64,000 nucleotides of DNA, taken from positions 4,712,001 through 4,776,000 of the forward strand of contig NZ_AP026738.1 of the NCBI RefSeq assembly GCF_002157685.2. The letters run 5' to 3'. Below, one piece after another: positions 10,921 through 30,241 of the stretch. Source of the stretch: Comamonas thiooxydans. GTDB lineage: Bacteria; Pseudomonadota; Gammaproteobacteria; Burkholderiales; Burkholderiaceae_C. Position 1 is the stretch's first letter; each line of letters opens with the position of its first letter. The notes under the pieces are model-generated. The model was not told the origin of the DNA, did not search any database, and was given only the letters and a program-made list of their open reading frames with translations. The position numbers and the translations under genes are program-made.

Positions 10921-11355
10921 TTATCCAGTACGGCGGCGATGTTCGCATTGAGGTGTGGTGCAGCGGCCGTAAAGGATGTGGGAATGCTCGACGACCTCGA
11001 AGCCATATTCCGAAGCGATCAACCGCTGTCGCTGTTCCACCGCTTCATCATGGAATTCCTGAACGCGGCCGCAGGTCGTACACACGAGATGGTCATGGTG
11101 CATCCCGTCATCCAGCTCATAAACGGCTCGCCCTGCCTCGAAGTGCGCCTGCTTGAGCAGGCCGGATTGCTGCAACTGTGTGAGCACGCGGTACACGGTA
11201 GCCAGACCGACCTCGTGACCTTGCTTGAACAGCAGGCGATACACCTCTTCGGCTGTCAAATGACGTACATCTGCTTTCTGAAACATTTCCAGGATTTGCA
11301 GCCGAGGCAGCGTGGCCTTCAAGCCTCGGTTTCTGAGTTCGGTTGAATCAGGCAT
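10921..11355 (-). CDS. fur: Fur-family metalloregulator (Fur-like paralogue)
   Basis: 144-residue Fur-type repressor. It has the N-terminal winged helix (VGLATVYRVLTQLQQSGLL near 48-66), the HHDHLVCTTC metal site near 86-95 and a second Cys pair in CTTPQC near the C-terminus. It resembles true Fur more than the two Zur-like proteins of this cargo. The start overlaps the end of pyrC by eight bases, so it is co-transcribed with the zinc genes. It may be an accessory iron regulator or a Fur needing less structural zinc; the sequence does not decide this. Confidence 0.85.
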   Translation of the reverse strand: MPDSTELRNRGLKATLPRLQILEMFQKADVRHLTAEEVYRLLFKQGHEVGLATVYRVLTQLQQSGLLKQAHFEAGRAVYELDDGMHHDHLVCTTCGRVQEFHDEAVEQRQRLIASEYGFEVVEHSHILYGRCTTPQCEHRRRTG

Positions 11356-12745: not shown

Positions 12746-14775
12746 GGGGCAGTCTCCAGCGGGTCAACCACAGCTTCGCCAGCGGTGTGCTGGCGGTTCA
12801 GACGAAGGCACAGGCGGCGTTGCGCCTCGCTGCGTGCAGCGGCGTCCGGTGCCTGCGATGCCCGCAACAGCAGCGCCACGGCATCCATCAAGGGCAACAC
12901 GCCCAGGTCTTGCCCGTCACGGCTGCGGATGGCAATGGAGCCTGTGTCGCGCTCCTTGGCCCCGGCGACCAGCAGAAAGGGGATGCGCTGCAAAGTCTGC
13001 TCGCGGATCTTGTAGCCGATCTTCTCGTTGCGCACATCGGCTTCGCAGCGCAGCCCGGCACTCCGCAGAAGCCGTGCCACGTCCTGTGCGTAGGGGGCAT
13101 GTTCCTCGGTGATCGACAACACCATCACCTGCATCGGCGCCAACCAGGCCGGCAGCTTGCCCGCGTGGTGCTCGATCAGAATGCCGGTGAAACGCTCCAG
13201 CGAACCGAACAATGCACGGTGCAGCATGACCGGGCGCTTGCGCTGGCCGTCTTCATCGACGTACTCGATACCGAAGCGTTCAGGCAGGTTCATGTCCACC
13301 TGGAGGGTTCCGCACTGCCAGTCGCGGCCGATGGCATCACGCAGCACGAATTCGAGCTTGGGGCCGTAGAAGGCGCCTTCGCCTGGATTAATGCGGTAGG
13401 CCAGGCCCATGCCGTCCAGCGCCTGAACCAGCGCGCCTTCGAGCAAGTCCCACGTTGCCTCATCGCCCATGCGGTTCTCAGGACGGGTCGAGAGCTTGAT
13501 GCGCACATCCTCGAAGCCGAACTGGCGGTAGATGTCGAGCACCAGGGCCACGACCTCGCGGCACTCGGCGTCCATCTGCTGCGGTGTGCAGTAGATGTGG
13601 GCGTCGTCCTGCGTGAAGTGGCGCACGCGCAGCAGTCCGTGCAGCGCGCCGGAAGGTTCGTAGCGATGCACCTTGCCGAACTCGCCCATGCGAATCGGCA
13701 GATCGCGGTAGCTTTTGAGGCCGAGGCGATACAGCAGCACGCTGCCGGGGCAGTTCATGGGCTTGAGCGCGAGGGCGCGGCCATCCTCGGTTTCGGTGGT
13801 GAACATATGGTCGCGGTAGTTCTGCCAGTGGCCGGAGATTTCCCACAGGCTGCGATCCATCACGTCGGGCGAATTCACCTCCACATAGCCTGCGTCCTGC
13901 TGTCGGCGGCGCATGTAGGCGATCAACTCCTGGAAAACGGCCCAGCCGCGCGGATGCCAAAACACGGCTCCGGGCGCATCTTCCTGAAAATGGAACAGAT
14001 CCAGTTCGCGGCCCAGCTTGCGGTGGTCGCGCTTCTCGGCCTCTTCGATCCGTCGGAGATAGGCATCGAGCTGCTTCCTGTCGGCCCAGGCTGTTCCGTA
14101 GATTCGCTGGAGCTGTTCGTTCCTGGCATCGCCGCGCCAGTAGGCTCCGGCCAGCTTGGTGAGCTTGAACGCCTTGAGAAAGCGCGTATTGGGCACATGC
14201 GGCCCACGGCACATGTCCACGTATTCCTGGTGGAAATACATGCCCATTTGCTGCTCGTCCGGCATGTCCTCGATCAGCCGCAGCTTGTAGTCCTCGCCGC
14301 GCTGTTGGAAGAGTCCCATGACCTCATTGCGCGGCAGCACGCGCTTGATCACGTCGTAGTCCTGCGAGATCAGCTCCTTCATGCGCGTTTCGATCGCGGC
14401 CAGGTCTTCGGGCGTGAAGGGACGTTCGTAGGCAATGTCGTAGTAGAAGCCGCCTTCGACGACTGGGCCGATGACCATCTTCGCGCTCGGGTAGAGCTGC
14501 TTGACGGCATGGCCGACCAGATGCGCGCAGGAGTGCCGGATGATTTCCAGTCCCTCCTCATCCTGGGGGGTGATAATCTGCAAGGCTGCGTCGTGGTCGA
14601 TGACCGCGCACGCATCAACGAGCTGCTCGTCGAGTTTGCCCGCCACCGTGTTCCGGGCCAGCCCGGCACCAATCGTGGCGGCGACCTCGGCCACGGTGAC
14701 AGGATGGTCGAAATGGCGCTGCGATCCATCCGGCAAGGTCAGCGTGATGGCTTGTTGAGGGAGTGTGATGTCCAT
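12742..14775 (-). CDS. thrS: Second threonyl-tRNA synthetase
   Basis: 677-residue complete ThrRS: TGS domain (1-65), editing domain with HSCAH near 80-84 and CRGPH near 187, class II catalytic core and anticodon-binding domain. The three catalytic zinc ligands known from E. coli are kept (Cys near 341 in MNCPG, His near 392 in DDAHIY, His near 519 in VMLHRA), so this is not a zinc-free form by ligand loss. The residue after MNCPG is Ser where His is usual. It overlaps pyrC and follows the carbonic anhydrase gene by two bases. A zinc-regulated second ThrRS is known in Anabaena. Confidence 0.93.
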
Positions 14776-14777
14776 GT

Positions 14778-15338
14778 TCAGAACTCGTTTTGAATGGCCT
14801 TGTAGCCAAGCACCAGCTCGTTGTTAGTGCGCGCCACGTCTTCGGAAAACTCGCTGGCGGCAGCAGGCACTTGCGGCAGCGATGCAAGATCAGTGTCAGG
14901 GCCGATGCGCTCGGTGGAGCGCACGTAGAACCCCGCAGGCAGATGCACGCCATCGACCACGGCGTTGTAGCGAACCACGCAGCCGTCATCGACCGTGCAG
15001 TTGAACAGCACGCTGTTGAAGCCGATGAAGACGCCGTTGCCGATGGCGCAGGGGCCATGCACGATGGCGCGATGGGCAATGGAAGTGCGCTGCCCGATGC
15101 GCACGCTGGCACCGGACTTGGAATGGATCACCACGCCGTCCTGGATGTTAGAGTGGGCGCCGATCACGATGGGGTCGATGTGCCCATCGGCATCCATCTC
15201 ATCCGCACGGATGACCGCATAAGGGCCGATGAACACGTTTTCCTCGACGACCACGAGGCCGCACAGGATGGCGGTCGGATCGACGAAGGCGCTGGGATGA
15301 ATCTGTGGCAGGTCGCCGCGTGGGTTCTTGCGGATCAT
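14778..15338 (-). CDS. Gamma-class carbonic anhydrase family protein
   Basis: 186-residue left-handed beta-helix protein built of hexapeptide repeats (residues about 15-150). The three candidate metal His are present: His72 (VVIHSK), His89 (SIAHR) and His94 (IVHGP). Gamma enzymes hydrate CO2 and can work with iron or cobalt instead of zinc, which fits its place between yidD and thrS in a zinc-limitation operon. Substrate has not been inferred beyond family. ATGA overlap with yidD. Confidence 0.85.
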
Positions 15339-15592
15339 GGTGGGTTGGGCCGTGATGTTGTTGGTTGGGCGGGTGGCACGGGGTCATGCCCGCCTGGGTG
15401 CAGCGGATGGCAGCGCAGCACGCGCCGCAGTGCCAGCCAGCCTCCCTTGATGGCCCCATGCGTTTGCAAGGCTTCGACGGCGTACTGCGAGCAAGTGGGG
15501 TGGAACCGGCAGCGCGGGCCGAGCATCGGGCTGATGAACAACTGGTAGCCGCGCACCAGCAGCACCAGCATGCGGGCGGGCCAGCGCGTCAT
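15335..15592 (-). CDS. yidD: YidD membrane-protein insertion efficiency factor
   Basis: 85-residue YidD protein with the family core [23 protein letters not shown] split across residues 12-34, the Cys/His motif FHPTCSQYA and RCHPLHPGG. It assists YidC-dependent membrane insertion. It overlaps cysS and the carbonic anhydrase gene by four bases each. Its presence among zinc-enzyme paralogues is unexpected; its conserved Cys and His residues make a metal link conceivable but unproven. Confidence 0.9.
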
Positions 15593-16995
15593 GCCAGTTC
15601 CTTTCCTTTGGGGCGAACCACCATGCCTTTGAGCGTGTCTTCCACGATGAAGCCGGCTGCCTCCAGTTCGCCCCGCAGCGCATCGGCGCGGGCAAAGTCC
15701 CGGCGCTCCCGTGCTTGCTGGCGCTCGTCCAACAGTTCTCGGACACGGTTGGCATTGACCGTCCGCGCCCAGTCCGATGGCGCAAGCGCCTCCATTGCCA
15801 TGCTCGGAGCCTGCTGCAACAAGCCGAGCACACCGGCTGAAACCAGCAGGCGCGACTTGGCCTGTACCCGCGCCGTGTCCGTCGCCGCTTCGTCAAGCTC
15901 CGTGCGCAGTGCGTGCAGGCGGGTCAGCGCCCCAGGAACATTGAGGTCGTTGCGAAGTGCCTCCAGCACCTGTGCATCGGGGGTGGTGTCTGCCAACGCA
16001 GAAACGTGTTCGACTTTCGCTAGGCTGGCATAGAAGCGCGTCAGCGCCTGCCGCGCCGCCGCCAGCCGCTGGGCGCTCCAGTCCAGCGGGCGGCGGTAGT
16101 GGGTGGACAGCAGCGCCAGGCGGATGGCTTCGCCCGACGCCTGTTGCAGCAGGTCGCGCACCAGCAGCACGTTGCCCAGCGACTTGGACATCTTCTGTCC
16201 ATCCACCGTGACGAAGCTGTTGTGTACCCAGGTGCGGCAGTAGAGCGCGCCGTGGGCGCAGGTGCCCTGGGCGACTTCGTTCTCGTGGTGGGGGAATATC
16301 AGATCCTGCCCGCCGCCGTGGATGTCGATGGTGTGGCCCAGGTGCTGGCCGATCATGGCCGAGCATTCGACATGCCAGCCGGGGCGGCCCTGGCCCCAGG
16401 GGCTGTCCCAGCCCGGCTGCTCCGGTGTCGAGGGTTTCCAGAGCACAAAGTCCATCGGGTCGCGCTTGTAGGGCGCCACTTCCACGCGGGCACCAGCCAG
16501 CATGTCCTCGGTGCGCCGCCCCGAGAGCTGTCCATAGGCCGGATACGACGGCACATGGAACAGCACATGCCCTTGTTCGGCGTAGGCGTGGCCCCGTGCC
16601 ATTAGTTCCCGGATCAGGTCGATGATCGCGGGAATGTGCTCAGTGACGCGCGGCTCCAGGTCGGGTGTCAGCACCCCCAGCGCCCGCATATCCTCGTGGT
16701 AAGCGTCGATGTAGCGGCCAGTGATGGTGCCGATGGGCACCCCCTCGGTGGCCGCCGCCGAGTTGATCTTGTCGTCCACGTCAGTGAAGTTGCGGGCATA
16801 GACCACCTCGCGGTAGTCCTGCCGGAGCAGCCGGGCCAGCACGTCGAACACCACGGCAGGCCGTGCGTTGCCGATGTGGGCGAAGTTGTAGACCGTGGGG
16901 CCGCACACGTACATCGTCACCCGGTCGGGCTGCCCGGTGCGTAAGGGTTCTTTCTTGCGCACGAGCGTGTTGTAAAGCTGGATGGGCGGATTCAT
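15589..16995 (-). CDS. cysS: Second cysteinyl-tRNA synthetase
   Basis: 468-residue class I synthetase with the HIGH-type motif (FAHIGNARP near 37-45) and KMSKS (QKMSKSLGN near 268). The four zinc ligands known in E. coli CysRS are retained: Cys31 in MYVCGPT, Cys near 211 in WHVECSAM, and the His and Glu of FPHHENE near 236-240. It is therefore a normal zinc enzyme by motif, duplicated under the zur operon. ATGA overlaps join it to the COG0523 GTPase upstream and yidD downstream. Confidence 0.93.
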
Positions 16996-18083
16996 GCGGT
17001 CGGCTCTCCCGCTTGTGGCAGCGCCTGCCTCAGCGCCTCGAACGTGCGCTCAACCACCTCCCGGTCAACGTCCTGGGTGATGAAGACCAGGCGCGAGCGG
17101 CGGTCTTCGCTCGGCCAGGCGGGCAATGGCACGGGCGGATGGAAGATGTGCTGCACGCCATGCACGACGATCGGCTGCGCGCTGCCCTCCACGTTGAGGA
17201 TGCCTTTCACGCGAAGGATGTTGCTGCCCACGAAGGCCATAAGCAGTTCGAGCCAGTTGGTCAGTACCTCGTCGGGTATCGGGTCATCGACGTGGAAGCA
17301 GAACGCGCGGATGTGGTCATCGTGGCGGTTCACGTCGTGGTGGTCGTGCGCGTGGCCGTGATCGTGATGTACATGTGCGTGTTCATGCGCTGGCGCATAG
17401 GCTTCCTCTCGCAGCCAGCGCGCCACGTCGGGGGTCTTGCCGTCCGCAGAGAACAGCCCGAGATTCAGCACCTTCTGTGGGGCGATTTCACCGCCCCGCA
17501 CCTCCCAGCGCGGGGCGGCCGGGTTGATGCCGTCCAGTCGGCGCAACAGCGTATTGCGTTGCTCGTCAGAGACCAGATCCGCCTTGGTCAGCAGCAGCGC
17601 GTCGGCCACGGCCGCCTGCTTGACGGCCTCCGGGTGCTGGTCGAGGGTGTGCATGCCGGTGGCCATGTCTACGGTCGCGACGATGCCATCGAGCCGGTAT
17701 TTCGGCGCGATTTGCGGATGAGTCATCAGCGTGTGGATGATGGGTGCCGGGTCGGCCAGACCGGTGGTTTCGATCAGCACGCGCCGGAACTGCCGCTGGC
17801 CGTTGCGTGAAAAGCGCCAGGTGATGTCGCGCAGGGTTTTGACCAGATCACCGCGGATGGTGCAGCACAGGCAACCGCTGCTCATCTCCATCACCAGGTT
17901 CTCGGTACTGTGGGCGACCAGCAGGTGGTCAAGTGCCATTTCGCCGAACTCGTTGATGATGACCAGCGCGTCGGCCAGCTCAGGTTTGCGCACCAGATGA
18001 TTGAGCACGGTCGTCTTGCCACTGCCCAGGAACCCGGTCAGCAGGGTGACGGGGATCAGGCTGGAGGGGGATTCGACAGTCAT
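16992..18083 (-). CDS. COG0523 (CobW/ZigA-like) metallochaperone GTPase
   Basis: 363-residue P-loop GTPase: Walker [10 protein letters not shown] at 17-25, the COG0523 metal motif GCLCC at 70-74, a TKAD guanine-specificity motif and a C-terminal CobW_C domain. Between the domains (about 229-255) is a His-rich loop with [17 protein letters not shown], a likely zinc-binding segment. These proteins deliver zinc to client enzymes. The ATG at 18083 overlaps the stop of folE2, fixing the start against the longer frame. It differs from the ZigA-type GTPase two genes upstream. Confidence 0.92.
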
Positions 18084-18994
18084 GCAAAAACTCCTTCGGA
18101 TATCGGAGCCGCCCACGCCACCGCGTCATGCGGGTGCAGGCTCTCCAGGTGCCGGACATGGACGCTGGGGCGGACGTAGCCGCTCAATGCCGCCTCGATG
18201 CGCCGGGCTGCGTCCTCGACGAACATCAGGTTCTGGCCGTTGAGCGCCGCGAACGCCTGTTCGTCGGCGCGCTTTACCGCTGTTTGCACGGGCGTGCCCA
18301 CGGCCTGCTCGATGCGGTCGATCAGCGCCAGCAGCCCGAGCGTGTCGGCGTCGCTGGGCACGTCCACCGTGACCTGCGCCTCGCTGCGCTGGCTGTGCGG
18401 CGTCGCCAGCGTCGCATGCTGGTGCAGCCAGGCCGCCACGTCGGCCGGCTCCACGGGGGACTGCCGGTCGAAGGCTTTCAGAAAGCCCTGTTCGATGATC
18501 TGCCGCGACAGCGCGGCCGAACAGGGACAGGTCGAGGAATAGCCCGCCGTGACCTGCACGCGGCACCTGAACACACCGTCGATGAGGGAAACATCCAGAC
18601 GGACGGGATAGGACTTCCAGCCGGACAGCCCCTGCGTGACCAGCGCCGGACGCCGCACCAACAGCGCAAAGTTCAGGCGCAGCCGTGCGCAACGGCTGTC
18701 GCAATCCTGATGGCTGGCGATCATGTCTTGGAGCAGATGGCACAGGCCCGTTGGCGAGAGCGCTTCGCCCTGGCCCAACGTATCCAGCAGCCGGTACAGC
18801 CGGGACATGTGGATGCCCTTGACATGCGGGGCCGGCAAATCGACCTGCACGTCAGCGCGCGCATGCAGCTCGCGCCGGCAGCCTGGCTCGGCCACGGTGA
18901 TGGGCAGGTCGATGCCCTGCATGCCAACCCATGCCAGCGGACTGAGGCTGGGGGCAATGTCGGTCAGTGAAACGTCGGGAAGCGCTGCATTCAT
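18080..18994 (-). CDS. folE2: GTP cyclohydrolase IB
   Basis: 304-residue FolE2, the type IB enzyme that makes dihydroneopterin triphosphate for folate without needing zinc, and which many bacteria use in place of zinc-dependent FolE under zinc limitation. The conserved [14 protein letters not shown] segment near 152-165 holds the active-site cysteine. The ATG at 18994 (MNAALPDVS) is preferred over the upstream frame start at 19024. It overlaps the COG0523 gene by ATGA and follows zigA by 60 bases. Confidence 0.93.
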
Positions 18995-19054
18995 GCTCAA
19001 AATCCAGTTGGGGTGCGCCCCCACCCGGTTCAGAGCATGGGGAGCGCGGTCAAA

Positions 19055-20266
19055 TCAGTGCCAGTCGGGGAACGGGTTGTGCCAGGTCGTCCACGCCTTC
19101 GGGCCCTGGGCCATTTCTTCGTCGGTCAGCAGACAGGCATCGAAGCGCGCGCGCAGCGCCGCTTCGTCCATGCCCATGCCGATGAGCACCAGTTCCTGGC
19201 GGGCGTCACCCACGTTCTCGTCCCATTTCTCGCGGATCAGAGCGACGGATTCGGGGTCTTGCGGCCAGCGCTCCTGCGGCACCGCAGCCCACCAGTAGCC
19301 GGCCACGCCATGCCGGGCCACCGCACCCGCCTGCGACCAGTTGCCCGCCAGCGTCGGATCGCTGGCAAGCCAGAAGAAGCCCTTGGAGCGAACCACGCCC
19401 GGCCATTCGCTTTCCACCCAATCGAAGAAGCGCTGCGGATGGAATGGCCTGCGCGCCCGATAGACGAAATTGCGGATGCCGTATTCCTCGGTCTCCGGCG
19501 TATGCGTGCCGCGCAGTTCTTGCAGCCAGCCGGGCGCCTTGGAAGCCTCGTCGAAGTCGAACAGACCGGTATCCAGCACGCGGTCGAGCGGCACTTGACC
19601 GAACGCAGCGATCTCGATTCGGGCGCGCGGGTTGAGGCTGCGCAAAATCGCCATCAACCGGTCACGCTCATCGTCGCTGATCAGGTCAACCTTGTTAAGC
19701 ACGATCACGTCGCAAAACTCGATCTGCTCGATCAACAGGTCCACCACCGTGCGCTGGTCTTCCTCGCCCAGCGACTCACCGCGTGACTGAATGCTGTCGC
19801 GCGAGCTGTAGTCGCGCAGGAAGTTGTACGCATCGACCACCGTGACCATCGTGTCGAGCCGGGCCACGTCGCCCAGGCTGCGGCCGTCCTCGCCCTCGAA
19901 GGTGAAGGTCTCAGCCACGGGCAACGGCTCAGAAATCCCCGTGGATTCGATCACGAGTTGGTCGAAGCGGCCTTCTTTGGCAAGACGATCCACTTCAAGC
20001 AGCAAATCCTCGCGCAGCGTGCAGCAGATACAGCCGTTGCTCATCTCCACCAACTTCTCGTCGGTGCGCGAGAGTTCGGCCCCGCCGTCGCGCACCAGCG
20101 CGGCGTCGATGTTGACCTCGCTCATGTCGTTGACGATGACCGCGACGCGCCGGCCCTCACGGTTGTTCAGGATATGGTTGAGCAGGGTGGTCTTGCCCGC
20201 GCCCAGAAAGCCGGACAGGACAGTGACGGGGAGTTTTTTCGTGGGATCTAGGGTTGCGGTTTTCAT
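19055..20266 (-). CDS. zigA: ZigA/YciC-type zinc metallochaperone GTPase
   Basis: 403-residue COG0523 GTPase: Walker [10 protein letters not shown] at 19-27, GCICC at 78-82, NKVD guanine motif near 178 and a C-terminal CobW_C domain with the Trp-rich [11 protein letters not shown] segment. The segment [10 protein letters not shown] at 46-55 is typical of the Zur-regulated ZigA/YciC subgroup, which supports zinc-dependent enzymes under limitation. It lies 42 bases after zur on the same strand and leads the run of enzyme genes. Confidence 0.93.
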
Positions 20267-20308: not shown

Positions 20309-20698
20309 TCAATGCGACCCTGCGCAAGCTGCACATTTGCCGTGCAATTCGATGGTCGAACTGCGCAGCGAGAAGGCGTTGTTCTTCGTCCAGCGGCCGA
20401 TGCAGCGACCCAAATCACGCTCAGAGAACTCGTCTACATGGCCACACTGATCGCAGATGGCGAAAGCCCTGAGGCCTTGTTGGCAGTCCACCGCGTGATT
20501 GCAGGGCACGTACGCATTCAAGGTCGCAAGACGGTGTACCAATCCATCGTTGGCCAAACGCTCCAGAGCTCGATAGACCTGCATGGGTGCACTGAAACCG
20601 TGCTCGCGCAATCGTTCAAGAAGCGCATATGCGCTGAGCGGCTCGCTGGCTTGCCGAAGGGCCGTAAGGACTCGTTGCTGGTTGGTGGTCAGTTGCAC
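20309..20698 (-). CDS. zur: Zur-type zinc uptake regulator (first copy)
   Basis: 129-residue Fur-family protein of the Zur branch: winged helix (APMQVYRALERLANDGLVHRL at 37-57), the CDQCG pair near 82-86 and CAAC at the C-terminus for structural zinc, and the HAVDC segment near 68-72. It is the first gene of the long zinc operon and has a palindromic box 56-68 bases upstream, so it probably represses itself and the operon. It shares many residues with the divergent copy at 20967-21410. Confidence 0.9.
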   Translation of the reverse strand: MQLTTNQQRVLTALRQASEPLSAYALLERLREHGFSAPMQVYRALERLANDGLVHRLATLNAYVPCNHAVDCQQGLRAFAICDQCGHVDEFSERDLGRCIGRWTKNNAFSLRSSTIELHGKCAACAGSH

Positions 20699-20753
20699 AG
20701 AACTCTCCGTGGATCGCGATATGCACAGGGATTAACATCGAAATTTATGTAAT

Positions 20754-20766
20754 GTTATAACATAAC
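20754..20766. promoter_or_regulatory. Candidate Zur box upstream of the zur-zigA operon
   Basis: GTTAT-aac-ATAAC is a perfect inverted repeat with a 3-base centre, in an AT-rich stretch otherwise rare here. It matches the GTTATA...TATAAC pattern of proteobacterial Zur operators. It lies 56 bases upstream of the first zur start. Confidence 0.75.
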
Positions 20767-20941: not shown

Positions 20942-20958
20942 GCGTTACAACATAACGC
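20942..20958. promoter_or_regulatory. Candidate Zur box upstream of the divergent zur
   Basis: GCGTTAC-aac-ATAACGC has 7-base arms pairing at 6 positions and the same aac centre as the 20754-20766 site. It ends nine bases before the ATG at 20967, so a bound repressor would block both transcription and ribosome access. Confidence 0.7.
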
Positions 20959-20966: not shown

Positions 20967-21410
20967 ATGTCGCCCTCTGCCAAGCCGCACTCTCATGAGC
21001 TGACCAAGCACCAGTCACTCGTGCTCAACGCGCTTGCGCGTGAGGAGAATCCTGCGAGCGCATACACGCTACTCGACCATCTGCGAGCGGAGGGATTGCG
21101 CGCGCCGCAACAGGTGTACCGTGCGCTAGACAAGCTGATCGAGTACGGGCTTGTGCACCGCGTGGAAACGCTGAATTCTTTCGTCGCATGCGCTCACCCC
21201 CATGACCACCGGCATGGGCTGGTCGTCTTCGCCATTTGCGATCAGTGCGGGCAGGTGGAGGAGTTCTCAGACCAAGCCATCGAACGTCGTCTCAATGGCT
21301 GGTCGAAAGACCACGCTTTTCGCTTGAGCAAGGCCTCCGTCGAGATGCACGGTACCTGTGGCCGCTGCGACCATCCGCCCGCCGTGGAGTCGGCCCCGCA
21401 CGGCCTATAG
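20967..21410 (+). CDS. zur: Zur-type zinc uptake regulator (second copy)
   Basis: 147-residue Fur-family repressor closely related to the first copy: APQQVYRALDKLIEYGLVHRVET matches its DNA-recognition region (split across 44-66), with CDQCG near 92 and CGRC near 131 for structural zinc, and HPHDHRHG as the regulatory metal site. It is transcribed away from the operon copy and towards the TonB-receptor gene, which converges on it. Two Zur proteins may differ in zinc affinity; this is inference. Confidence 0.9.
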   Translation: MSPSAKPHSHELTKHQSLVLNALAREENPASAYTLLDHLRAEGLRAPQQVYRALDKLIEYGLVHRVETLNSFVACAHPHDHRHGLVVFAICDQCGQVEEFSDQAIERRLNGWSKDHAFRLSKASVEMHGTCGRCDHPPAVESAPHGL

Positions 21411-21439
21411 CCGCGCGGCCCGACCTTCTCAACAATTCG

Positions 21440-23722
21440 TCAGAAATCCACGCGCATGCTGATTGAGGCTGTGCGCCCCGGCGCCGTATAGGCGGCCAAC
21501 CGCGCATCGTTGCCCGTCAACCCGCTCACTGTGGACCAATCGTAGTATTGCCGGTTGAACAAGTTGTAGATCGCCAGGTTCAGTGTGGCCTGCTTGCCGA
21601 TGCGCCAGTAGGCTGTTATATCCATCGTGGCATAGCCGGCGGTCTTGAGTGGCACGGGGGCAGTCGGTCCGGTCTGCGCCAACGCCTCGTTGACACGCCG
21701 CTTTCCCGCCACGAAATTGCTCGTGAGTTGCCCGCCAAAGCGCCCGCCGCGCTCATCCCAGCGCAGCCCGGCAACCAGCCGCGCGGGCTGAATGCTGTTG
21801 AGCGGCTGGTCAGCGGTTTTATCGTTGCCCATCGACCACTGCATGGCGCCGATCAGGCGCCAGCGGTCAGCTGCGTTGAACCAGTGGCTGATCGGTATCT
21901 GCCCCTTGGCCTCGATGCCGTAGATCTCCACCTCTCCGAGGTTGCGCGACTGAAAGCGCCGTATCGCGCGTGGGCCGCCGCTTTGCCCTGGAGGGATGAA
22001 TGCGATCATCTGGGTATCGATGAAGTCGGTGTAGCGGTTGTAGAAGGCCGACAGCTCATACGAACCCATGTTCGACTCACCACGCAGGCCCAACTCCACA
22101 CCCCGGCTGCGCTCGGGCTTGAGGTTGGGGTTGGGGATGAAGTCGTGGATGAATGTCGCCACGGCGGTCTGCCCGGCACGGTTGAGTTGCTCCGGCGTGG
22201 GCATGCGAAAGCCCGTCACGAGGTTGGCATAGGCAACCTGGCGGGGCTGCCACTCGTAGCTCAACCCCAGGCGCGGCGTCCATGCGGTCTTGGATAGAGC
22301 CACCGGGGTGGTACCACCCACGTTGGCGTTAGCGAACAGAGCGTCGGGCTTGGGTGAGATCCGGTAGGTGTCGAAACGCAGACTCGGTGTCAGGCGTAGC
22401 CTGCCGTCGCCGAACGCCATCTCGTCCTGGACAAACAGGCCGAGGCTGCGCACGTCGGCCTCAGGCGCGGTGCGGCGCGGAAAGATCTCGCCATCGATGA
22501 CGCTCGTAGCACCGGTTCCCGCCACAGTGCGCTGCACGGCATTGTTGTAGAGGCTGACCGATTTGGATAGCACATCCATGCCCGTCACCCAACGGTGGGC
22601 CACGCTGCCCGTGTCGGCATGTCCGTCGAATTGCAGGCTACCAGACCACTGAGGCTCGCGGTAGGACATGGTGCTGTCACGCAGCAACGCCGGGGCGGCG
22701 CCCGGAGGTTTGCGTCCTTCGTGCGTGCGTTCTTCGCTGCGGCTGTGCTGGTAGTCGATCTGCGCCGAAAAATTGTCGAACCAGGCGCTGCTGGGTGCAT
22801 AGCGGTAAGCCAGGCCCAGCCGGTCGCGGCGACTGATGTCGTCCGCTTGGCTGCCGGTGATGCGTGTGCCACCTGCAATGGGGCCCATCAGCGACTGCTG
22901 GTCGGTGCGGATCGACTGCTCGTAATGCTCACCCGTGAACGTCAGCGACTGCGCAGAATCGATGTCGAGCACAGACTTGAACAGCAGATTGCGCATCTGC
23001 GTGTCTTGCGGGTTGGGATGTAAGTCACTGTCCGGGTGATTCTTGAGCTGGCGTCCGTCACGCTCCGTGAAGGACAGCAGGTTCTGCGTTGGGCCGGCCC
23101 TAAACGCCAGGTCGGCATGGCCCCAGCGGCCGTTGTCGCGGCCATCATAGCCCGTGGAGGCAGAGCCGGCAAAACCTCTGGAACTGTCCAGGAAGTCCTG
23201 CGGCGACAGCGTGCGGAACAACACCACGCCGGCCAATGCGTCGCTGCCGTACAGGCTGGAGGCCGGCCCCTTGAGTACCTCCACACGACTCAGTGACAGT
23301 GGATCCACGCGAAGTTGGCCGGAGTTGGCTCCCGCCGCTACATAGCCGCCCGGCAGGCGCACGCAATCGAGGAACATGCCCAGGCGTTGGGCACCAATGC
23401 CACGCACCTGGATCGCAGCTTCGCCTCCGCGTCCGCGCGCCTCACGGCTGACCGAGATACCAGGTTCATAGCGGAACATCTCGCTGAAGTCCGTCACTAG
23501 GTTTTCTTGTAGCTGTATCTCGTCGATCACCGACACCGTCGCTGGCGTAGTTAGTGCCGCCGTAGGCCGACGTGTGGCATTGATGACAACGGAAGGCAAT
23601 GTTGCTACTTCGCTAGCAATGGCCTGGGCCGGTGTGCTCGCCGGCGCCTCCTGCGCCCACACCGCGCCTGCGGCTGCCCATACCCCCCACATGGCTGCGT
23701 GCAGCCGCTTCAAACGAAACAT
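21440..23722 (-). CDS. TonB-dependent outer-membrane receptor, haem-receptor type
   Basis: 760-residue receptor: signal peptide (to about 23), plug domain (about 45-165) and a 22-strand barrel ending in Phe. Near 505-535 it carries FRMPTPEQ, then FIH and NPNLKPE, close to the FRAP...His...NPNL signature of HemR/HmuR haem-haemoglobin receptors. I chose the ATG at 23722 (MFRLKRL), which has GAGGATGG upstream; the longer frame runs through the divergent promoter. It is divergent from the CobN-like operon with a Zur box between them, so the ligand may be a zinc or tetrapyrrole complex rather than plain haem. Confidence 0.88.
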   Translation of the reverse strand: MFRLKRLHAAMWGVWAAAGAVWAQEAPASTPAQAIASEVATLPSVVINATRRPTAALTTPATVSVIDEIQLQENLVTDFSEMFRYEPGISVSREARGRGGEAAIQVRGIGAQRLGMFLDCVRLPGGYVAAGANSGQLRVDPLSLSRVEVLKGPASSLYGSDALAGVVLFRTLSPQDFLDSSRGFAGSASTGYDGRDNGRWGHADLAFRAGPTQNLLSFTERDGRQLKNHPDSDLHPNPQDTQMRNLLFKSVLDIDSAQSLTFTGEHYEQSIRTDQQSLMGPIAGGTRITGSQADDISRRDRLGLAYRYAPSSAWFDNFSAQIDYQHSRSEERTHEGRKPPGAAPALLRDSTMSYREPQWSGSLQFDGHADTGSVAHRWVTGMDVLSKSVSLYNNAVQRTVAGTGATSVIDGEIFPRRTAPEADVRSLGLFVQDEMAFGDGRLRLTPSLRFDTYRISPKPDALFANANVGGTTPVALSKTAWTPRLGLSYEWQPRQVAYANLVTGFRMPTPEQLNRAGQTAVATFIHDFIPNPNLKPERSRGVELGLRGESNMGSYELSAFYNRYTDFIDTQMIAFIPPGQSGGPRAIRRFQSRNLGEVEIYGIEAKGQIPISHWFNAADRWRLIGAMQWSMGNDKTADQPLNSIQPARLVAGLRWDERGGRFGGQLTSNFVAGKRRVNEALAQTGPTAPVPLKTAGYATMDITAYWRIGKQATLNLAIYNLFNRQYYDWSTVSGLTGNDARLAAYTAPGRTASISMRVDF

Positions 23723-23759
23723 GGAAATTCCATCCTCATAAAACAAAGTATTTATGAAT

Positions 23760-23772
23760 GTTATAACATCAC
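23760..23772. promoter_or_regulatory. Candidate Zur box between receptor and CobN-like genes
   Basis: GTTAT-aac-ATCAC keeps the left arm and centre of the 20754 site, with one mismatch in the right arm. It stands 38 bases from the receptor start (23722) and 30 bases before the CobN-like ATG (23802), so it could control both directions. Confidence 0.6.
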
Positions 23773-23801
23773 ACTTTGGTTTTGGAGATTGGCAGAGAAA
23801 A

Positions 23802-26800
23802 ATGGGATGGGCTCGTGGCTCAATCAAAACAGTCTGGAACTGGCGCAGCACACTGCTGGCTGCGGTGCTGTTCCTCGTGGCCGCTGCCGCGCTATGGATG
23901 GCCTGGAGCGCCTGGCTGGCGCCCACGCGGGTGGCGCTGGTGCATTACCCGGACTTCCAGGCGGCGCGCCTGCTCAAGGCCAGCCCCGGCGCCTTCACCC
24001 GCGCCGAGGTCCTGCCGCTGGAGCGGCTGAACCAGGCGCGGCGTTATGACCTCGTGTTGGTTTTTGGCCGCGGCCTGAAGCTCGACGATGCACAGGTACA
24101 GCAGCTGCGCGCCGCCACACAGTCAGGAACGCCCGTCTATGTGGACGGTGCCACCAACCCGCAACATGACATGCTCACCAGCCTGCAGGGCATCGATCTC
24201 GATGCCGTCTCGGCCTACCTGCGCGGCGGCGGTCCGGTGAACTATGCGCGCCTGCAGACCTACACCCGCCGCGTGCTGGACGGAAAGCGCTTGTTCGCGA
24301 ACCAGGTGGAGCCACCCCAACCGATGCCGCAGGATGTGTTTTTCCACTTGAGTGACGAAGCGGTCTTTGCGGACTTCGCGAGTTTCGAGCAGTACCTGCA
24401 AAAGCAGGCAGGCTGGAAGCCAGGTCGCCCGCGCCTGGCGTTGCTGACTAGCGTGCCTGGGCCCTTCAACGCCAACCGAGACCATGTGGACGCTGCCATC
24501 CGAGTCTTTGAAGCGCGTGGCTTTGAAGTCGTGCCCATCTCCGCCGTGCGCCAGCGTCTGGCCTTGTTGCGGCAGGCCGATCCGGCCGCCGTGGTGTATA
24601 TGCCCCATGGGAGACTGACTGTGGGGCAAGCCGATGAGGCACGGCAGTGGCTCACTGAGCGCAATATCCCGCTGTTCGCGCCAGTGAGCGTTTTCACCGA
24701 GGAGAGCGAATGGCTGGCCGATCAGCGCAGTTTCGATGGCGGCCTTCTGACGATGTCCGTCACTCTGCCCGAGATCGACGGCGCGACTACGCCGCTGGCG
24801 ATCGCCGCGCAGTTCCGCGACCAGGACGGCTTGCGCGTGTTCCGCGCGCTGCCGCAGCGGCTGGAACGCTTTGCCGATCTGGTGCAGCGCACCGTGGCGC
24901 TCAAGGTCAAGGCCAATGCCGACAAGAAGCTGGCCATCTACTACTACAAAGGCCCCGGCCAAAGCGCGATGACCGCAGGCGACCTGGAGGTCGCGCCCTC
25001 ACTCTACGCTTTGCTCAAGCGCCTGCGGGCCGATGGCTACCGCGTGGATGGACTGCCTGCCACCGAGGCTGATTTTGCTCGTCTGCTGCAACGGCGCGGC
25101 CCCAACATCGGACCCTATGCTAAGGGCGATCTCGCCAAATTCCTGGGCGAGGCCGATCCGGCCTGGGTGCAGACTGGGCAACTGAAGAACTGGTGCGGCC
25201 GGCAGATCGCGCAGCTGTTGTGTGATCAGGTGGCCCGGCAGTTCGGCCCCGCGCCCGGCGCCTACCTGAGCGATAGAGCCGGCGATGAGGGCCGCGTCGC
25301 TGTGGCGCGCGTGTCGCTGGGCAACGTGGTGCTGCTGCCGCAGCCGCTGTCCGGCGTGGGTGACGACACTTTCAAGATCGTGCACGGCACTCAGCTCGCA
25401 CCGCCTTGGCCCTATGTGGCCTCGTACCTGTGGACGCGCGAGGTCTTTGGTGCGGACGCGGTGATGCACTTCGGCACCCACGGCAGCTTGGAGTTCACGC
25501 CCAGCAAGCAAGTCGCGCTGTCCGACAACGACTGGCCCGACGCCTTGATAGGCCAGGTGCCGCATCTGTACCTGTACACCATGGGCAACGTCGGCGAGGC
25601 CATGATCGCCAAGCGCCGCAGCTACGCTACCATCGTCTCGCACCTGACACCGCCGCTGCGCGAAGGCGGCGCACAGTCCGGCTACAAGCAGCTCGCAGAC
25701 CGCCTGCAAACTTGGGGTGCCACTGGCAGCCCCGCGCTCAAGCACCAGTACGCGCAGGACATTCAGCGCCAGGCCGTGACACTGGGCCTGCACCGCGACC
25801 TGTCGTTCGCTGCAGAGCAGCCCTGGAGCGATGCCCAGCTGGAGCAGTTGGCCGACCACATGGAAACTGTGGAGGATGCGCGCATCACCGCCGGTCTGTA
25901 CACACTGGGCAACCCGTATGCGCCGCCCGCGCTGGACGCCACCGCGCGGTTGATGGGCCTGGATGCGGTGGTACAGGCATTGGCCGAATTGGATGTAGCG
26001 CGCGGCACCGTACGGCGTGAGCAACTCGACCATTCAGCGTGGCTGGCGCGCACCTACCGGCCCCACGCTGAGACCTTGGTTGCGCGCGCCGAGCGCGGCG
26101 AAGCAGCTACATCCCTGATGGCCCAGGTGGTGCAGCCCGGCGAGTTGCAACGCGCCCTGGACTGGGAAAAAGCGCAGCGCCGCCCTGGTGACGACGAACT
26201 GGTGCGAGGCTTGATCGCCATGGGTGATTCACGCGCCCGTCGCGCGCCTGCCTCCGAAACAGTGGCCGACGATGGCGCACTGCGCCAGCACCTGGCGCGT
26301 GCGCTGGCAGATCCGAAGAAGCGTGAGTTCCTGGAAGGGTTGCGTTCCGACCAGAAACTCAAGCAGGCGCTGCGTTCGCTGGACCCAGAATCTCTGCAGA
26401 GCGCGCGCACTGTCGCCAAGGCCATTCCCGCTATGGCCCAGGCGCTCGAGATCGCCGCCGACTCCGATGTGAAGCCCTTGCTGTCCGCCATGCAGAACGA
26501 GCCTATGCGCCGCAAGATATTGGGCTGGCTGGTCGACCCGGAGCTTCAGGCGCGCACCGAGGCCGAGGCCGGCCGTGCCACGGAGGTCCTGCAAGCTCAG
26601 GCGCGCGAACACCAGGGCGCGCTGGAAACGGCCGAGGTAACACCCGACGCGCAGGCGGCGCAGCAGCGCATCCAGGGTCTGGATGCGCCTGCACAAGACC
26701 GGCTGCTCGCCGAGCTGCGTTTTTGGCAGCAGGCACCGGCACTGCAGGACTCCTGGCAGGCACGCCGACAGGACGCGGCGGTCGGCATCGCCCATCTCAC

Positions 26801-28586
26801 ACAAGCACTGGAGCGCAGCGCCACCCGACGCGCCGAGGACGAATGGCGCTTCGCCCAGGCCGTGCTTACGTTGCGCGAGCGCCTGCAGGCCATTCCTCAC
26901 TATCGCGGCCAGTTGGCTGAAAGTCCGGCACGCGAGTTGACCGCGCTCACCAATGCACTGGCCGGCGGCTTCACGCCGCCCTCGTCGGGCGGCGACCCGC
27001 TCGTCAACCCGGCAGCGCTGCCCACCGGACGCAACCTGTTCGCCATCGACGCCGAAAAAACCCCGTCCGAACAGGCTTGGACCGTGGGACGGCAATTGGC
27101 TGACCAGATGCTGACCCAGCACCGCGCAGCCCACGAAGGCCAGTGGCCGAGCAAGGTGGCCTTCACGCTATGGGCTGGCGACTTTATCCACACCGAGGGC
27201 ACCAGCGTCGCGCAGATCCTCTACCTGCTGGGCGTGGCGCCGGTGCGCGACCCGTTCGGGCGCGTGTCGGGCCTGCGCCTGATTCCGCGGGAGGAGTTGG
27301 GCCGCCCGCGCATTGACGTGGTGGTGCAGACCTCGGGCCAATTGCGCGACTTGGCAGCCTCGCGTCTGTATCTGATCAACAAGGCCGTGACGATGGCCGC
27401 CCAAGCGCGCGAGCAAGACAATGCCGTCGCCCAGGGCGTACAGGCCGTGGAACGTGCGCTCAAAGAGCGCGGTGCTTCCCCCGCCGATGCGCGCCGCTTT
27501 GCCGCCGTGCGCGTGTTTGGCGGCGTCAATGGCAACTACGGCAGCGGCATCATGGGCATGGTCGAGGCCGGCGACCGCTGGAAGGACCGATCCGAAGTCG
27601 CCCACACCTATCTGGCCAACATGGGTGCAGCTTTCGGCGAGGGCGACCTGTGGGGCGCTTTCCAGAGCGGCGCGTTCGAGGCCGCCCTGGCCGGCACGCA
27701 GGTGGTGGTGCAGCCGCTCGAATCCAACACCTGGGGGCCGATATCACTCGACCATGTCTATGAATTCATGGGCGGGCTGAACCTGGCGGTGCGCGAGGTC
27801 ACCGGGCAGGAGCCGGCCGCGTACTTCAGCGACTACCGTAACCCTTCGCGGCCCACCGTGCGCGAGGCCAAGACAGCCATTGCCGTGGAAGCGCGTGCCA
27901 CGATGCTGAATCCAGCCTATATCGAGGCCATGGCCCAGGGCGGTGCTTCGTCCGCCGAGGTGTTCGCCGAGACGTTCCGCAATCTCTATGGCTGGAATGT
28001 GATGAAGCCCGATGCCATCCCGACCGAGATGTGGGATGCGCTGCACGACACCTATGTCCGTGATACGCACGGTATGGGCACACGCCAGTTCTTCGAGCGC
28101 GCCAATCCTTATGCGCTGCAGGAGATGACGGCGGTGATGTTGGAGACCGCGCGCAAAGGCTACTGGCGGCCCGGTGACGCACGCCTACGCGAGGTGGCCG
28201 GCCTGCATGCCGACCTGGTCGCTCGCTTTGGCGCCAGCGGCACGGGCTTCGTCAACGACAACCGGGCGCTGCGCGGCTTCATCGCTGAGCAGGTGGCCCC
28301 CGAAGCTCGCCAAGCCTATGACGATGCGCTGCAGAACGCCAACGAGGGCGCGGCTATCACTGCTGACAAAGCCACAGTGCTGCGCAAGGCTGATGACCGG
28401 CCGGCGGCCCAGCACGCGGGAGACCAAGCCGCCGAGCAAGGTCGCGCAGCCGGTGAGGCCACGCAGGAACAGTCCATCGCATTGCGTCCTGGGGCCACCG
28501 CCATCGCCGTGCTGGCAGGCGCGCTACTGGTGCTGGGGGCGCTGGTGTGGCGGCTACGCCGCCGCCATTCTGGAGTCAGGGCATGA
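23802..28586 (+). CDS. Membrane-anchored CobN/HmuS-like chelatase
   Basis: 1594-residue protein with the CobN/BchH chelatase fold. Core motifs include GTHGSLEFTPSKQ near 560, GNVGEAM, and the C-terminal half from PLVNPAALPTGRNLF near 1065. Unlike cytoplasmic CobN it has one N-terminal transmembrane segment (about 15-37) and one at the C-terminus (ATAIAVLAGALLVLGALVW) followed by RLRRR, which places the body in the periplasm. A helical segment of about 250 residues (805-1055) precedes the second half. I chose ATG 23802 because the earlier ATG at 23754 overlaps the Zur box. Its stop overlaps the next gene. HmuS of Bacteroidetes, a CobN homologue acting on haem, is the closest known parallel. 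Confidence 0.85.
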   Translation: MGWARGSIKTVWNWRSTLLAAVLFLVAAAALWMAWSAWLAPTRVALVHYPDFQAARLLKASPGAFTRAEVLPLERLNQARRYDLVLVFGRGLKLDDAQVQQLRAATQSGTPVYVDGATNPQHDMLTSLQGIDLDAVSAYLRGGGPVNYARLQTYTRRVLDGKRLFANQVEPPQPMPQDVFFHLSDEAVFADFASFEQYLQKQAGWKPGRPRLALLTSVPGPFNANRDHVDAAIRVFEARGFEVVPISAVRQRLALLRQADPAAVVYMPHGRLTVGQADEARQWLTERNIPLFAPVSVFTEESEWLADQRSFDGGLLTMSVTLPEIDGATTPLAIAAQFRDQDGLRVFRALPQRLERFADLVQRTVALKVKANADKKLAIYYYKGPGQSAMTAGDLEVAPSLYALLKRLRADGYRVDGLPATEADFARLLQRRGPNIGPYAKGDLAKFLGEADPAWVQTGQLKNWCGRQIAQLLCDQVARQFGPAPGAYLSDRAGDEGRVAVARVSLGNVVLLPQPLSGVGDDTFKIVHGTQLAPPWPYVASYLWTREVFGADAVMHFGTHGSLEFTPSKQVALSDNDWPDALIGQVPHLYLYTMGNVGEAMIAKRRSYATIVSHLTPPLREGGAQSGYKQLADRLQTWGATGSPALKHQYAQDIQRQAVTLGLHRDLSFAAEQPWSDAQLEQLADHMETVEDARITAGLYTLGNPYAPPALDATARLMGLDAVVQALAELDVARGTVRREQLDHSAWLARTYRPHAETLVARAERGEAATSLMAQVVQPGELQRALDWEKAQRRPGDDELVRGLIAMGDSRARRAPASETVADDGALRQHLARALADPKKREFLEGLRSDQKLKQALRSLDPESLQSARTVAKAIPAMAQALEIAADSDVKPLLSAMQNEPMRRKILGWLVDPELQARTEAEAGRATEVLQAQAREHQGALETAEVTPDAQAAQQRIQGLDAPAQDRLLAELRFWQQAPALQDSWQARRQDAAVGIAHLTQALERSATRRAEDEWRFAQAVLTLRERLQAIPHYRGQLAESPARELTALTNALAGGFTPPSSGGDPLVNPAALPTGRNLFAIDAEKTPSEQAWTVGRQLADQMLTQHRAAHEGQWPSKVAFTLWAGDFIHTEGTSVAQILYLLGVAPVRDPFGRVSGLRLIPREELGRPRIDVVVQTSGQLRDLAASRLYLINKAVTMAAQAREQDNAVAQGVQAVERALKERGASPADARRFAAVRVFGGVNGNYGSGIMGMVEAGDRWKDRSEVAHTYLANMGAAFGEGDLWGAFQSGAFEAALAGTQVVVQPLESNTWGPISLDHVYEFMGGLNLAVREVTGQEPAAYFSDYRNPSRPTVREAKTAIAVEARATMLNPAYIEAMAQGGASSAEVFAETFRNLYGWNVMKPDAIPTEMWDALHDTYVRDTHGMGTRQFFERANPYALQEMTAVMLETARKGYWRPGDARLREVAGLHADLVARFGASGTGFVNDNRALRGFIAEQVAPEARQAYDDALQNANEGAAITADKATVLRKADDRPAAQHAGDQAAEQGRAAGEATQEQSIALRPGATAIAVLAGALLVLGALVWRLRRRHSGVRA

Positions 28587-29239
28587 GCCTGGACGGCAGC
28601 ATCCTGCTCCTGCTAGCCGCCTGCTGCATGGTCCTCGCGGCCCTGCAGGCCAGCGAATGGCCCCGGCCGCTGCAAGCGGTGATGGTTCTGGCGCTGGCTG
28701 GCGCGCTGGCCGCATCGGGCGAACTGGCTAGCCGCACTAGCACCGCCGAGATTCTGCGCTGGATCGCGTCGCCCCAACGGCGGCAGGACTTGGCGGCACT
28801 GCTATTGACGGAGGCGCTGCTCTTCGGTAGTCAGGCCGTGCGTGCAGCGCAGGGACAGGCCACACGCTGGTGGCGCTGGCTGGGCTGGCTGCCGCCGCCC
28901 TCTGCGCTGCTGTCGCTGTTCTTTGCCCAAGTGGCCGTGATGCTACTGGTCGATGGCTGGGACTACGGCACGCTGGCCTGGCTTTGCTCGCTGGTCTTTG
29001 CCCTGCTGCTGGCCGCCGCCACGGCGCTGCTGCGCTGGGCCTTGCCCGATGCCGCCACACGCGGCGCGCTACGCGTGGGCCTGCATGGTGCACAGGCCGT
29101 TGCCGGGTTGTGGCTGGCACGGCCCACCTTCCAGATCGCCATCGACCCCGTACCGCTGTGGGGTGACCGCTTGGCCATCTTGACCGCTGTAGTCACCGCG
29201 CTGGCCGCTCTGGGCTGGTTGCTGCAGCGGCGACGTTGA
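28583..29239 (+). CDS. Polytopic membrane protein, HmuT-like position
   Basis: 218-residue integral membrane protein with about six hydrophobic segments, rich in Leu, Ala and Trp, ending in LLQRRR. I recognise no enzyme motif. The ATG overlaps the stop of the CobN-like gene (ATGA) and the ExbB-like gene follows after 19 bases, so it belongs to the same complex or pathway. Its place matches the membrane protein between hmuS and hmuU in Bacteroidetes operons. Confidence 0.75.
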   Translation: MSLDGSILLLLAACCMVLAALQASEWPRPLQAVMVLALAGALAASGELASRTSTAEILRWIASPQRRQDLAALLLTEALLFGSQAVRAAQGQATRWWRWLGWLPPPSALLSLFFAQVAVMLLVDGWDYGTLAWLCSLVFALLLAAATALLRWALPDAATRGALRVGLHGAQAVAGLWLARPTFQIAIDPVPLWGDRLAILTAVVTALAALGWLLQRRR

Positions 29240-29258
29240 ATCAATCAAAGAAAAACAC

Positions 29259-29864
29259 ATGGAATCGCTCATACAAACCCTCTCCTGGATCTCAACCGCG
29301 CTGCAGGTGCCGGTGGTGGTCGCCATCCTCTACCTGCTCGTTCGCGGCCTGCTGGCGCTGGGCGGCTTCTACGGCCGCTGGAGCGACCGGCTACGCCGGC
29401 GGCGAAACACCGGTGCATTGGCCACGGTGCCGACGGGTGAACTGCTCGACACGCTGGAGCACGCAACCCCGCGCAAGGCCGACGCGCTACACCAGGCATT
29501 GGCCGCTCTGCGTCAAGCCCCCACCGACCCTGTGTGGCATGAGCGTGTGGTGACGGAATTCGAACTCGCTATCGATCGTCAACTGGCACTGCTTCGCACC
29601 ATGACGCGCATCGGCCCACTGCTGGGACTGATGGGAACTCTGATCCCGCTGGGACCCGCCTTGGTGGCGCTGGCCGCTGGCGACATCGCAGTGCTGGCGC
29701 GCAAGATGGAGGTCGCCTTTGCCACCACCGTGGTCGGTCTCGTGATCGGCGCCATCGGTTTCCTGCTGTATCAAGCCGCGCAGCGTTGGGCGATGGATGA
29801 TTTATCGCTGCTGGAATTCGTTAGCGCACGCCTGCAGGGCACTGAATGGGAGAAAGCGAAATGA
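29259..29864 (+). CDS. MotA/TolQ/ExbB proton channel family protein
   Basis: 201-residue inner-membrane channel subunit. An N-terminal helix (about 10-31), a cytoplasmic loop, then two helices containing MTRIGPLLGLMGTLIPLG (near 108-125) and ATTVVGLVIGAIGFLLY (near 151-168) give the ExbB/TolQ pattern, including the conserved GLMGT. It would form a proton-driven motor with a single-pass partner, here most likely the DUF2149 protein whose ATG overlaps its stop. Confidence 0.9.
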   Translation: MESLIQTLSWISTALQVPVVVAILYLLVRGLLALGGFYGRWSDRLRRRRNTGALATVPTGELLDTLEHATPRKADALHQALAALRQAPTDPVWHERVVTEFELAIDRQLALLRTMTRIGPLLGLMGTLIPLGPALVALAAGDIAVLARKMEVAFATTVVGLVIGAIGFLLYQAAQRWAMDDLSLLEFVSARLQGTEWEKAK

Positions 29865-30241
29865 AACGCCGTCGCTCTCTGTTGCGCGGGGCCGGCTTAG
29901 GCAGTGACAGTGACGACATGGATCCTATGGGTTTCTTGATCAATCTATTTGACGTGGCTCTGGTTTTTTCCCTGGCGTTGATGATCGCGCTGGTATCTAA
30001 CCTGCGCATCGCCGACATGCTCACAACGAAGGACTTCACCATGGTTAAGAATCCCGGCCAGCCAAACATGGAAATCATCACACGTGAGGGTGGCAAGGTC
30101 TCACGTTACGTTGCTGGCGATGCCCAGGACAATCGCACGAACTCGCAACAAGCCCGCCAGGGCCAGCGAGTGGGTACTGCTTACAGGCTGGAAAGCGGAG
30201 AAATCATCTACGTTCCAGACGACGGCATCCTTGGAAAGTGA
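29861..30241 (+). CDS. DUF2149 protein, probable ExbD-like partner
   Basis: 126-residue single-pass protein. Basic N-terminus (MKRRRS), then one transmembrane helix (about 25-47) preceded by DPMGFLINLFDVALVF, in which an Asp sits at the membrane entrance as in ExbD/TolR/MotB; then a periplasmic tail of about 75 residues. DUF2149 genes recur beside ExbB-like and CobN-like genes. The four-base overlap with the ExbB-like gene supports a stoichiometric pair. It ends the operon. Confidence 0.82.
   Translation: MKRRRSLLRGAGLGSDSDDMDPMGFLINLFDVALVFSLALMIALVSNLRIADMLTTKDFTMVKNPGQPNMEIITREGGKVSRYVAGDAQDNRTNSQQARQGQRVGTAYRLESGEIIYVPDDGILGK

Follow-up and report, generated by a model that had tools for sequence, protein, structure and literature searches.

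A set of five genes with a possible role in zinc supply was analysed in a stretch of the Comamonas thiooxydans genome (64,000 nucleotides of contig NZ_AP026738.1; the whole stretch is called the window below). The set comprises a gene for a TonB-dependent receptor and, divergent from it, genes for a CobN-like protein, a polytopic membrane protein, an ExbB-like channel and a DUF2149 protein; this composition and the gene coordinates, given in a first-pass annotation of the same DNA, were borne out by the open reading frames (ORFs) and by Pfam. The set follows the plan of the hmuRSTUV genes of Bacteroidota, and an altered heme-holding site in its HmuS-type protein suggests, as far as sequence can tell, that it harvests zinc and not iron. 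Our preferred reading, to which we give a probability of about 0.43, is that the set encodes a Zur-controlled, redox-free de-chelatase that would take zinc from an imported zinc tetrapyrrole.

Predicted Zur control

A GTTAT palindrome between the divergent starts had been noted earlier, together with a proposal of Zur control. The palindrome proved to be a Zur-type box, whose core GTTATAACATCAC lies at 23760-23772. A search with the pattern GTTATNNNATAAC, allowing at most one mismatch, returned four matches in the window against 0.16 expected: two overlapping ones before the gene of Zur-like regulator 1, one before that of regulator 2 and one between the receptor and CobN-like genes. The bare pattern was rejected as a specific signal, being found at 31 places genome-wide against 47 for the reversed control. 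The evidence therefore lies in the clustering and position of the matches and in their conservation. The box between the receptor and CobN-like genes was sought in nine close relatives, including L029, which is nearly identical in sequence, and L063, a metagenome-assembled genome of Proteobacteria. It was present with at most one mismatch in 7/9 and with two mismatches in L072; the flanks diverged.

Beside the set, leftward of regulator 1, lies a block of reverse-strand genes (11348-20266) joined by small overlaps or gaps (Table 1). Blocks of this type, with ZigA, FolE2, COG0523 proteins, CysS, ThrS and dihydroorotase, are the usual zinc-sparing content of Zur regulons. Like a member of such a regulon, the set has a Zur-type operator at its promoter that is kept in relatives. 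Zur-type control, with Zur presumably binding this operator, is thus well supported by the clustering and conservation of the boxes and by the zinc block. The two Zur-like genes are divergent and lie in the same island, with one box site each.

The longest ORF of the CobN-like gene spans 23754-28586 (+). The start at 23802 is preferred because the box overlaps the ATG at 23754 and because L029 (97% identical) carries an in-frame TGA between the equivalents of the two starts. The ORF also starts downstream of the box in L028, L031, L047, L061, L063, L072 and L076. The ATGA overlaps described earlier were found at two gene junctions, but the junction between the polytopic and ExbB-like genes is a 19-nucleotide gap.

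An HmuS-type protein with a changed site 1

The CobN-like protein scored 1182 bits against HmuS, compared with 367 against ChlH and 342 against CobN, in keeping with the homology to hmuRSTUV claimed at the outset. The receptor, HmuS, T (polytopic), U (ExbB-like) and V (DUF2149) components of hmuYRSTUV of Bacteroidota are all present, T being assigned from position and hydrophobicity only, and the homology extends over nearly the whole length of Bacteroides thetaiotaomicron HmuS. The window differs in that its receptor gene is divergent, HmuY was not found, and a Zur-type box and zinc genes surround the set. The polytopic protein had no match in Pfam or NCBIfam; a homologue occupies the same slot in L028, L031, L047, L061, L072 and L076. 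In the hydrophobic segment of the DUF2149 protein, Asp36 was found in 60/62 sequences, and in a profile comparison it fell on the membrane Asp of ExbD (E 0.015, probability 3), a hint that DUF2149 may be an ExbD relative.

The hydrophobic segments of the CobN-like protein (16-34 and 1564-1582) carry Arg/Lys on both outer sides. By the positive-inside rule the body between them would therefore be periplasmic, which agrees with the first-pass annotation and with the topology held for HmuS.

A 2025 report presents HmuS as the first biological de-chelatase to have been demonstrated directly, acting on heme iron, with a site-1 heme at the head/neck interface held by Met79 and His254 and with Gln299 also strictly conserved (PMC12583661). 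Ferrous heme and NADH are needed, and the authors think that NADH reduces the site-1 heme (PMC12583661). A residue-level alignment placed Arg90 of the window protein at Met79, His269 at His254 and Met318 at Gln299, so that the Met ligand and the Gln are replaced; the His-Gly-Arg at 254-256 of HmuS is kept as HGR 269-271. Both proteins have a hydrophobic segment at each end, the HFG(T/A)HG (here HFGTHG) and SLDHxxEFMGG motifs with their His pair (H560 and H1318, with E1321), and the residues equivalent to His254, His538 and His1209. The methionine-rich insertion of HmuS is not kept: the domain IV insert is long but Met-poor (5 Met/280). Met-poor inserts also occur in some HmuS proteins with Met at site 1 (L105, 1/81; L099, 0/122). 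Loss of the site-1 Met ligand and Gln, with the cavity kept, fits zinc because zinc needs no redox step; a zinc enzyme could drop the site-1 redox heme yet keep the demetallating cavity.

The receptor passed two heme-receptor models of NCBIfam, TIGR01786 (402 bits, cut-off 323.75) and TIGR01785 (349.5, cut-off 316.85), and scored 30.9 bits on the ZnuD model, below its cut-off of 950. The nearest solved receptor by sequence is PhuR (8the, 296 bits). The structural model (predicted local distance difference test score 79) fits many TonB receptors at similar Z, PhuR being at rank 10 by Z; among 50 structural rows PhuR had the most aligned residues (673) and the highest identity (29%), at 2.5 Å. 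A comparison of 19 receptors, the window's included, gave two columns with His in at least 60%, namely 376 (17/19) and 526 (19/19). The invariant His526 lies between FRMPT (FRxP) and NPNLKPE (NPNL), where a His had been pointed out before. No His was found in the plug (58-166) of the window's receptor, which, with a single candidate axial ligand, would be suited to zinc porphyrin in its five-coordinate state.

Table 1. Predicted features of the zinc island in the window
Feature	Position	Strand	Basis
Dihydroorotase	11348..12745	-	NF006559 741, cut-off 482
Threonyl-tRNA synthetase (ThrS)	12742..14775	-	TIGR00418 704, cut-off 384
Hexapeptide-repeat protein; candidate gamma-carbonic-anhydrase-like from its look	14778..15338	-	PF00132
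YidD-like protein	15335..15592	-	PF01809
Cysteinyl-tRNA synthetase (CysS)	15589..16995	-	TIGR00435 483, cut-off 340
Second COG0523/CobW GTPase, His-rich stretch	16992..18116	-	Pfam cobW and CobW_C
FolE2 GTP cyclohydrolase	18080..19024	-	NF010200 309.5, cut-off 215
ZigA zinc metallochaperone GTPase	19055..20266	-	NF038288 712 bits, cut-off 600
Zur-like Fur-family regulator 1	20309..20698	-	Best NCBIfam PRK11639 Zur 82 bits, cut-off 167
Zur-type box before regulator 1, GTAATGTTATAACATAAC	20749..20766	+	Pattern match, two overlapping
Zur-type box before regulator 2	20944..20956	+	Pattern match
Zur-like Fur-family regulator 2	20967..21410	+	Best NCBIfam PRK11639 Zur 97 bits, cut-off 167
TonB-dependent receptor, heme/hemoglobin class, HmuR-like	21440..23722	-	PF00593/PF07715; TIGR01786 and TIGR01785 above cut-off; PhuR 8the nearest solved
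Predicted Zur-type operator, TGAATGTTATAACATCAC	23755..23772		Between divergent starts; conserved in relatives
HmuS-type (Arg-type) membrane-anchored chelatase-like protein, 1594 amino acids	23802..28586	+	PF02514 970 bits; HmuS 9d26 1182 bits
Polytopic membrane protein, HmuT-like by position	28583..29239 (ORF from 28547)	+	Hydrophobic segments; likely ATG 28583
ExbB/MotA/TolQ-like proton channel, HmuU-like	29259..29864	+	PF01618 (MotA_ExbB) 43.9 bits
DUF2149 protein, HmuV-like	29846..30241 (likely ATG 29861)	+	PF09919 95.6 bits; one hydrophobic segment

Site-1 types and their zinc links across loci

The column of Met79 (column 90) was compared in 78 loci, where it holds Arg in 51, Met in 21 and His in 6. 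The His-type proteins (L041, L043, L051, L060, L098 and L103) form a third type. Two protein searches, with the best 120 matches listed for each, gave 169 database proteins, of which 161 have Arg, seven Met and one a gap (P0035) at this column; the Arg:Met ratio is biased, since the proteins were retrieved as top matches of Arg-type queries. The site His is present in 169/169. Only columns 90, 102, 318 and 1083 separated 47 Arg-type from 21 Met-type rows at the thresholds used (L058, L091 and L106 left aside), column 90 doing so by definition. At column 318, Met (45/47) or Leu (2/47) in the Arg-type rows stands against Gln in 21/21 Met-type rows. The cavity residues are common to both types. 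His560 occurs in every row compared; His1318 and Glu1321 are missing from a single row, which is gapped; and Ser1308 and Trp1311 are kept in nearly every row.

Neighbouring genes were counted as zinc genes when ZigA-like above 300 bits or Zur-like above 55 bits. Such a neighbour was found at 17/51 Arg-type loci versus 0/27 others. The Zur-like neighbours counted at L057, L061 and L067 are weak (59, 69 and 66 bits), and a Fur-like neighbour of the Met-type L101 (28 bits) fell below the threshold and was not counted. Boxes close to the start of either the receptor or the HmuS gene turned up in 13/54 Arg-type rows (0.91 expected), 0/21 Met-type rows (0.86 expected) and 1/6 His-type rows (0.2 expected). 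With genes and boxes combined, a zinc link was present at 23/51 Arg-type loci versus 1/27 others, in counts that ignore kinship, and among Proteobacteria at 17/22.

A tree was built by a quick method from 85 rows and 850 columns, with column 90 omitted, and was rooted with two CobN rows and six rows that have the layout of the PA1922-25 operon of Pseudomonas aeruginosa; proteins shorter than 1240 amino acids and L106, which does not differ from L030 over the columns used, were excluded. Arg-type rows formed the deep branches, with the Met-type rows (heme-type HmuS) nested within them. The Arg-type L091 fell inside the Met clade; it adjoins a ZigA-like gene (529 bits, cut-off 600).

An HmuY-like protein was found in 17 rows of Arg-type Bacteroidota loci, and six HmuY proteins of both types were confirmed by Pfam. 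One HmuY column holds His in 16/17 Arg-type versus 0/17 Met-type rows, whereas His, Met and His at three other columns occur in 11, 12 and 11 of 17 Met-type rows versus 1, 2 and 0 of 17 Arg-type rows. The HmuY-family lipoprotein of Arg-type Bacteroidota loci is long, with 354-362 amino acids at the four loci annotated (e.g., L034 8822-9892); its length in L091 is 206 amino acids.

Related systems, rival explanations and significance

According to the first-pass annotation, no zinc role had been described for such a set. This held for HmuS-type sets in the literature searched, but not for the PA1922-25 operon. Loss of znuA raises expression of this operon 45- to 147-fold, gel shifts show Zur on the promoter of PA1922 even when no metal is added, and free-zinc or cobalt transport has been suggested (PMC4542158, PMC10393844, PMC8531726, PMC11761036, PMC8456098, PMC13083405). 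It shares with the window's set a TonB receptor, a CobN-like protein, an ExbB/D-like protein and a small protein, along with Zur control and induction by zinc shortage, which for the window are predicted. Unlike the window, 13 loci have a shorter CobN-like protein beside ExbB and DUF2149, and no polytopic homologue was detected in them. They belong to the order of L064, which we take to be Pseudomonadales; 9/13 have the PA1922-25 gene order, and in 3/13 the receptor gene is preceded, at a distance of about 40 bases, by a perfect Zur-type box. The receptor-CobN-ExbB-DUF2149 operons of L162, L163 and L164 have the perfect box GTTATGATATAAC at about this distance. The six of the 13 loci placed in the tree formed a separate, distant clade, and two CobN-like lineages therefore seem to serve zinc. 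No sequence named PA1923 was among the best 120 matches listed per protein search or in scans of 341 genomes of the L064 order; from its gene layout, PA1923 would belong to the distant clade. No paper among the literature matches listed mentions both PA1923 and HmuS. The words 'zinc', 'Zur', 'Proteobacteria' and 'Pseudomonadota' are absent from the HmuS paper text (PMC12583661), and our literature searches turned up neither a zinc role for an HmuS-type set nor any reference to the altered site 1. A paper on Porphyromonas gingivalis HmuS notes that other clades hold additional HmuS homologues, whose functions are presumed to differ (PMC13227078).

Several observations weigh against a zinc de-chelatase. 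No box at up to two mismatches was found between the receptor and CobN-like genes of L030, and both Zur-like proteins of the window score below the Zur model cut-off of 167. No zinc link was found in the DNA examined at 28/51 Arg-type loci; the Fisher tests on these links ignore kinship, and a kinship-aware pair test had three pairs, too few for significance. The tree has long outgroup branches, which drew a warning from the tool, in addition to its quick method. L091 combines Arg90 with Gln at column 318, and Met318 may be a ligand itself. A plug His at column 99 was present in 7/10 gammaproteobacterial receptors and 7/19 overall (L050, L055, L057, L064, L071, L090 and L096); a one-ligand receptor is therefore not general, and the candidate rule of 'one axial ligand' for the Arg type is weakened. 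Heme receptors too have one His between FRxP and NPNL, so that heme is compatible as the substrate, and no zinc-porphyrin receptor was found in print in the literature search.

The window may instead hold an ordinary heme-iron (or heme/porphyrin) uptake set under Zur control, useful, for example, to zinc-starved cells that meet heme-rich surroundings. The heme-class receptor with PhuR as nearest solved relative by sequence, the catalytic residues as in HmuS, the HmuY-like protein kept in Bacteroidota relatives and the frequent plug His in gammaproteobacterial receptors would all suit such a set, but the Met79 ligand is replaced by Arg (by type definition) and Gln299 by Met or Leu in the 47 rows, zinc links accompany the Arg but not the Met type, and the plug of the window's receptor has no His; we regard this explanation as unlikely. 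Slightly less likely again is a receptor that imports zinc on a non-tetrapyrrole carrier, such as a zincophore or peptide, from which the chelatase-like protein would strip it. The Zur-type box and the zinc block would be accounted for, and the Arg between head and neck may serve to bind carboxylates; the heme class of the receptor and the HmuY-like partner in relatives speak against such a carrier, and no zincophore synthesis gene was seen among the annotated ORFs, which are a subset of those in the window.

Import of free Zn2+ (or Co2+), with the CobN-like body as a metal-binding chaperone, has been put forward in print for PA1922-25, as a suggestion only, and ZnuA was not found in the C. 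thiooxydans genome; such import would leave the conserved HmuS cavity unexplained, and the receptor is far from ZnuD; we regard this account as improbable. Hardly credible is a cobalt-related enzyme, that is, a CobN paralogue that makes or remodels corrinoids in zinc-stressed cells. Databases use the name CobN, papers on P. aeruginosa suggest cobalt, and the protein shares with CobN and ChlH the PF02514 fold and the cavity His (HFGTHG). However, it stayed below every cut-off shown for curated CobN models (best 636.6 versus 1248), is anchored by hydrophobic segments at both ends and has no chelatase AAA+ partner among its annotated neighbours. Its identity as the CobN for cobalamin was rejected, as a second PF02514 protein of the genome, of ordinary CobN length, scores higher on that model.

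The preferred zinc de-chelatase reading would work as follows. When zinc is plentiful, Zur (two copies in the island) would repress the set. Under zinc shortage, the TonB receptor of the heme class would take up a tetrapyrrole with its metal, most probably zinc porphyrin, which the periplasmic HmuS-type body would bind in its central cavity between His560 and His1318. Protonation of the ring by this protein would then release Zn2+, the ExbB/DUF2149 pair possibly energizing the receptor, the chelatase body or both by proton-motive force. The freed Zn2+ may enter through a ZIP-type carrier, which is proposed because a search of the genome (99.99% complete) gave no ZnuA; it did give three ZIP genes above cut-off.

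The set and its zinc block are flanked by conjugation genes and an integrase, with TrbE-like, TrbB-like (T2SSE) and IncP-type TraG genes at 2331-9009 and genes for a relaxase/DUF3363 protein, an S26 peptidase, ParA, DUF736, DUF932 and a tyrosine integrase at 33741-53819. The relaxase is also present in the near-identical L029, and an integrative conjugative element seems to carry the zinc island as cargo. A YhcG-type PDDEXK nuclease (51454-52623, reverse strand) adjoins the integrase. At E 1e-150 the CobN-like gene was found in 2/299 sampled genomes of the family, its own included, and in none of the three other genomes listed for the genus. A plasmid scan with 15500-31900 returned 24 records, all at 60-80% identity and none covering 80%.

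A broader scenario, which we hold to be doubtful, is that the HmuS family began as Zur-controlled, redox-free zinc de-chelatases acting on tetrapyrroles and that the heme-iron type of gut Bacteroidota arose from them later by acquiring the Met/Gln site for a redox heme. In that case the window would carry a present-day member of an older branch that serves zinc and travels on a conjugative element. If the zinc de-chelatase reading is true of this widespread sister form of HmuS, bacteria would mine zinc from porphyrins, a source absent from the literature searched, and residues 90 and 318 would tell the two HmuS types apart. CobN-like genes in zinc regulons, the unexplained PA1922-25 operon among them, would then also have a hypothetical enzymatic role.

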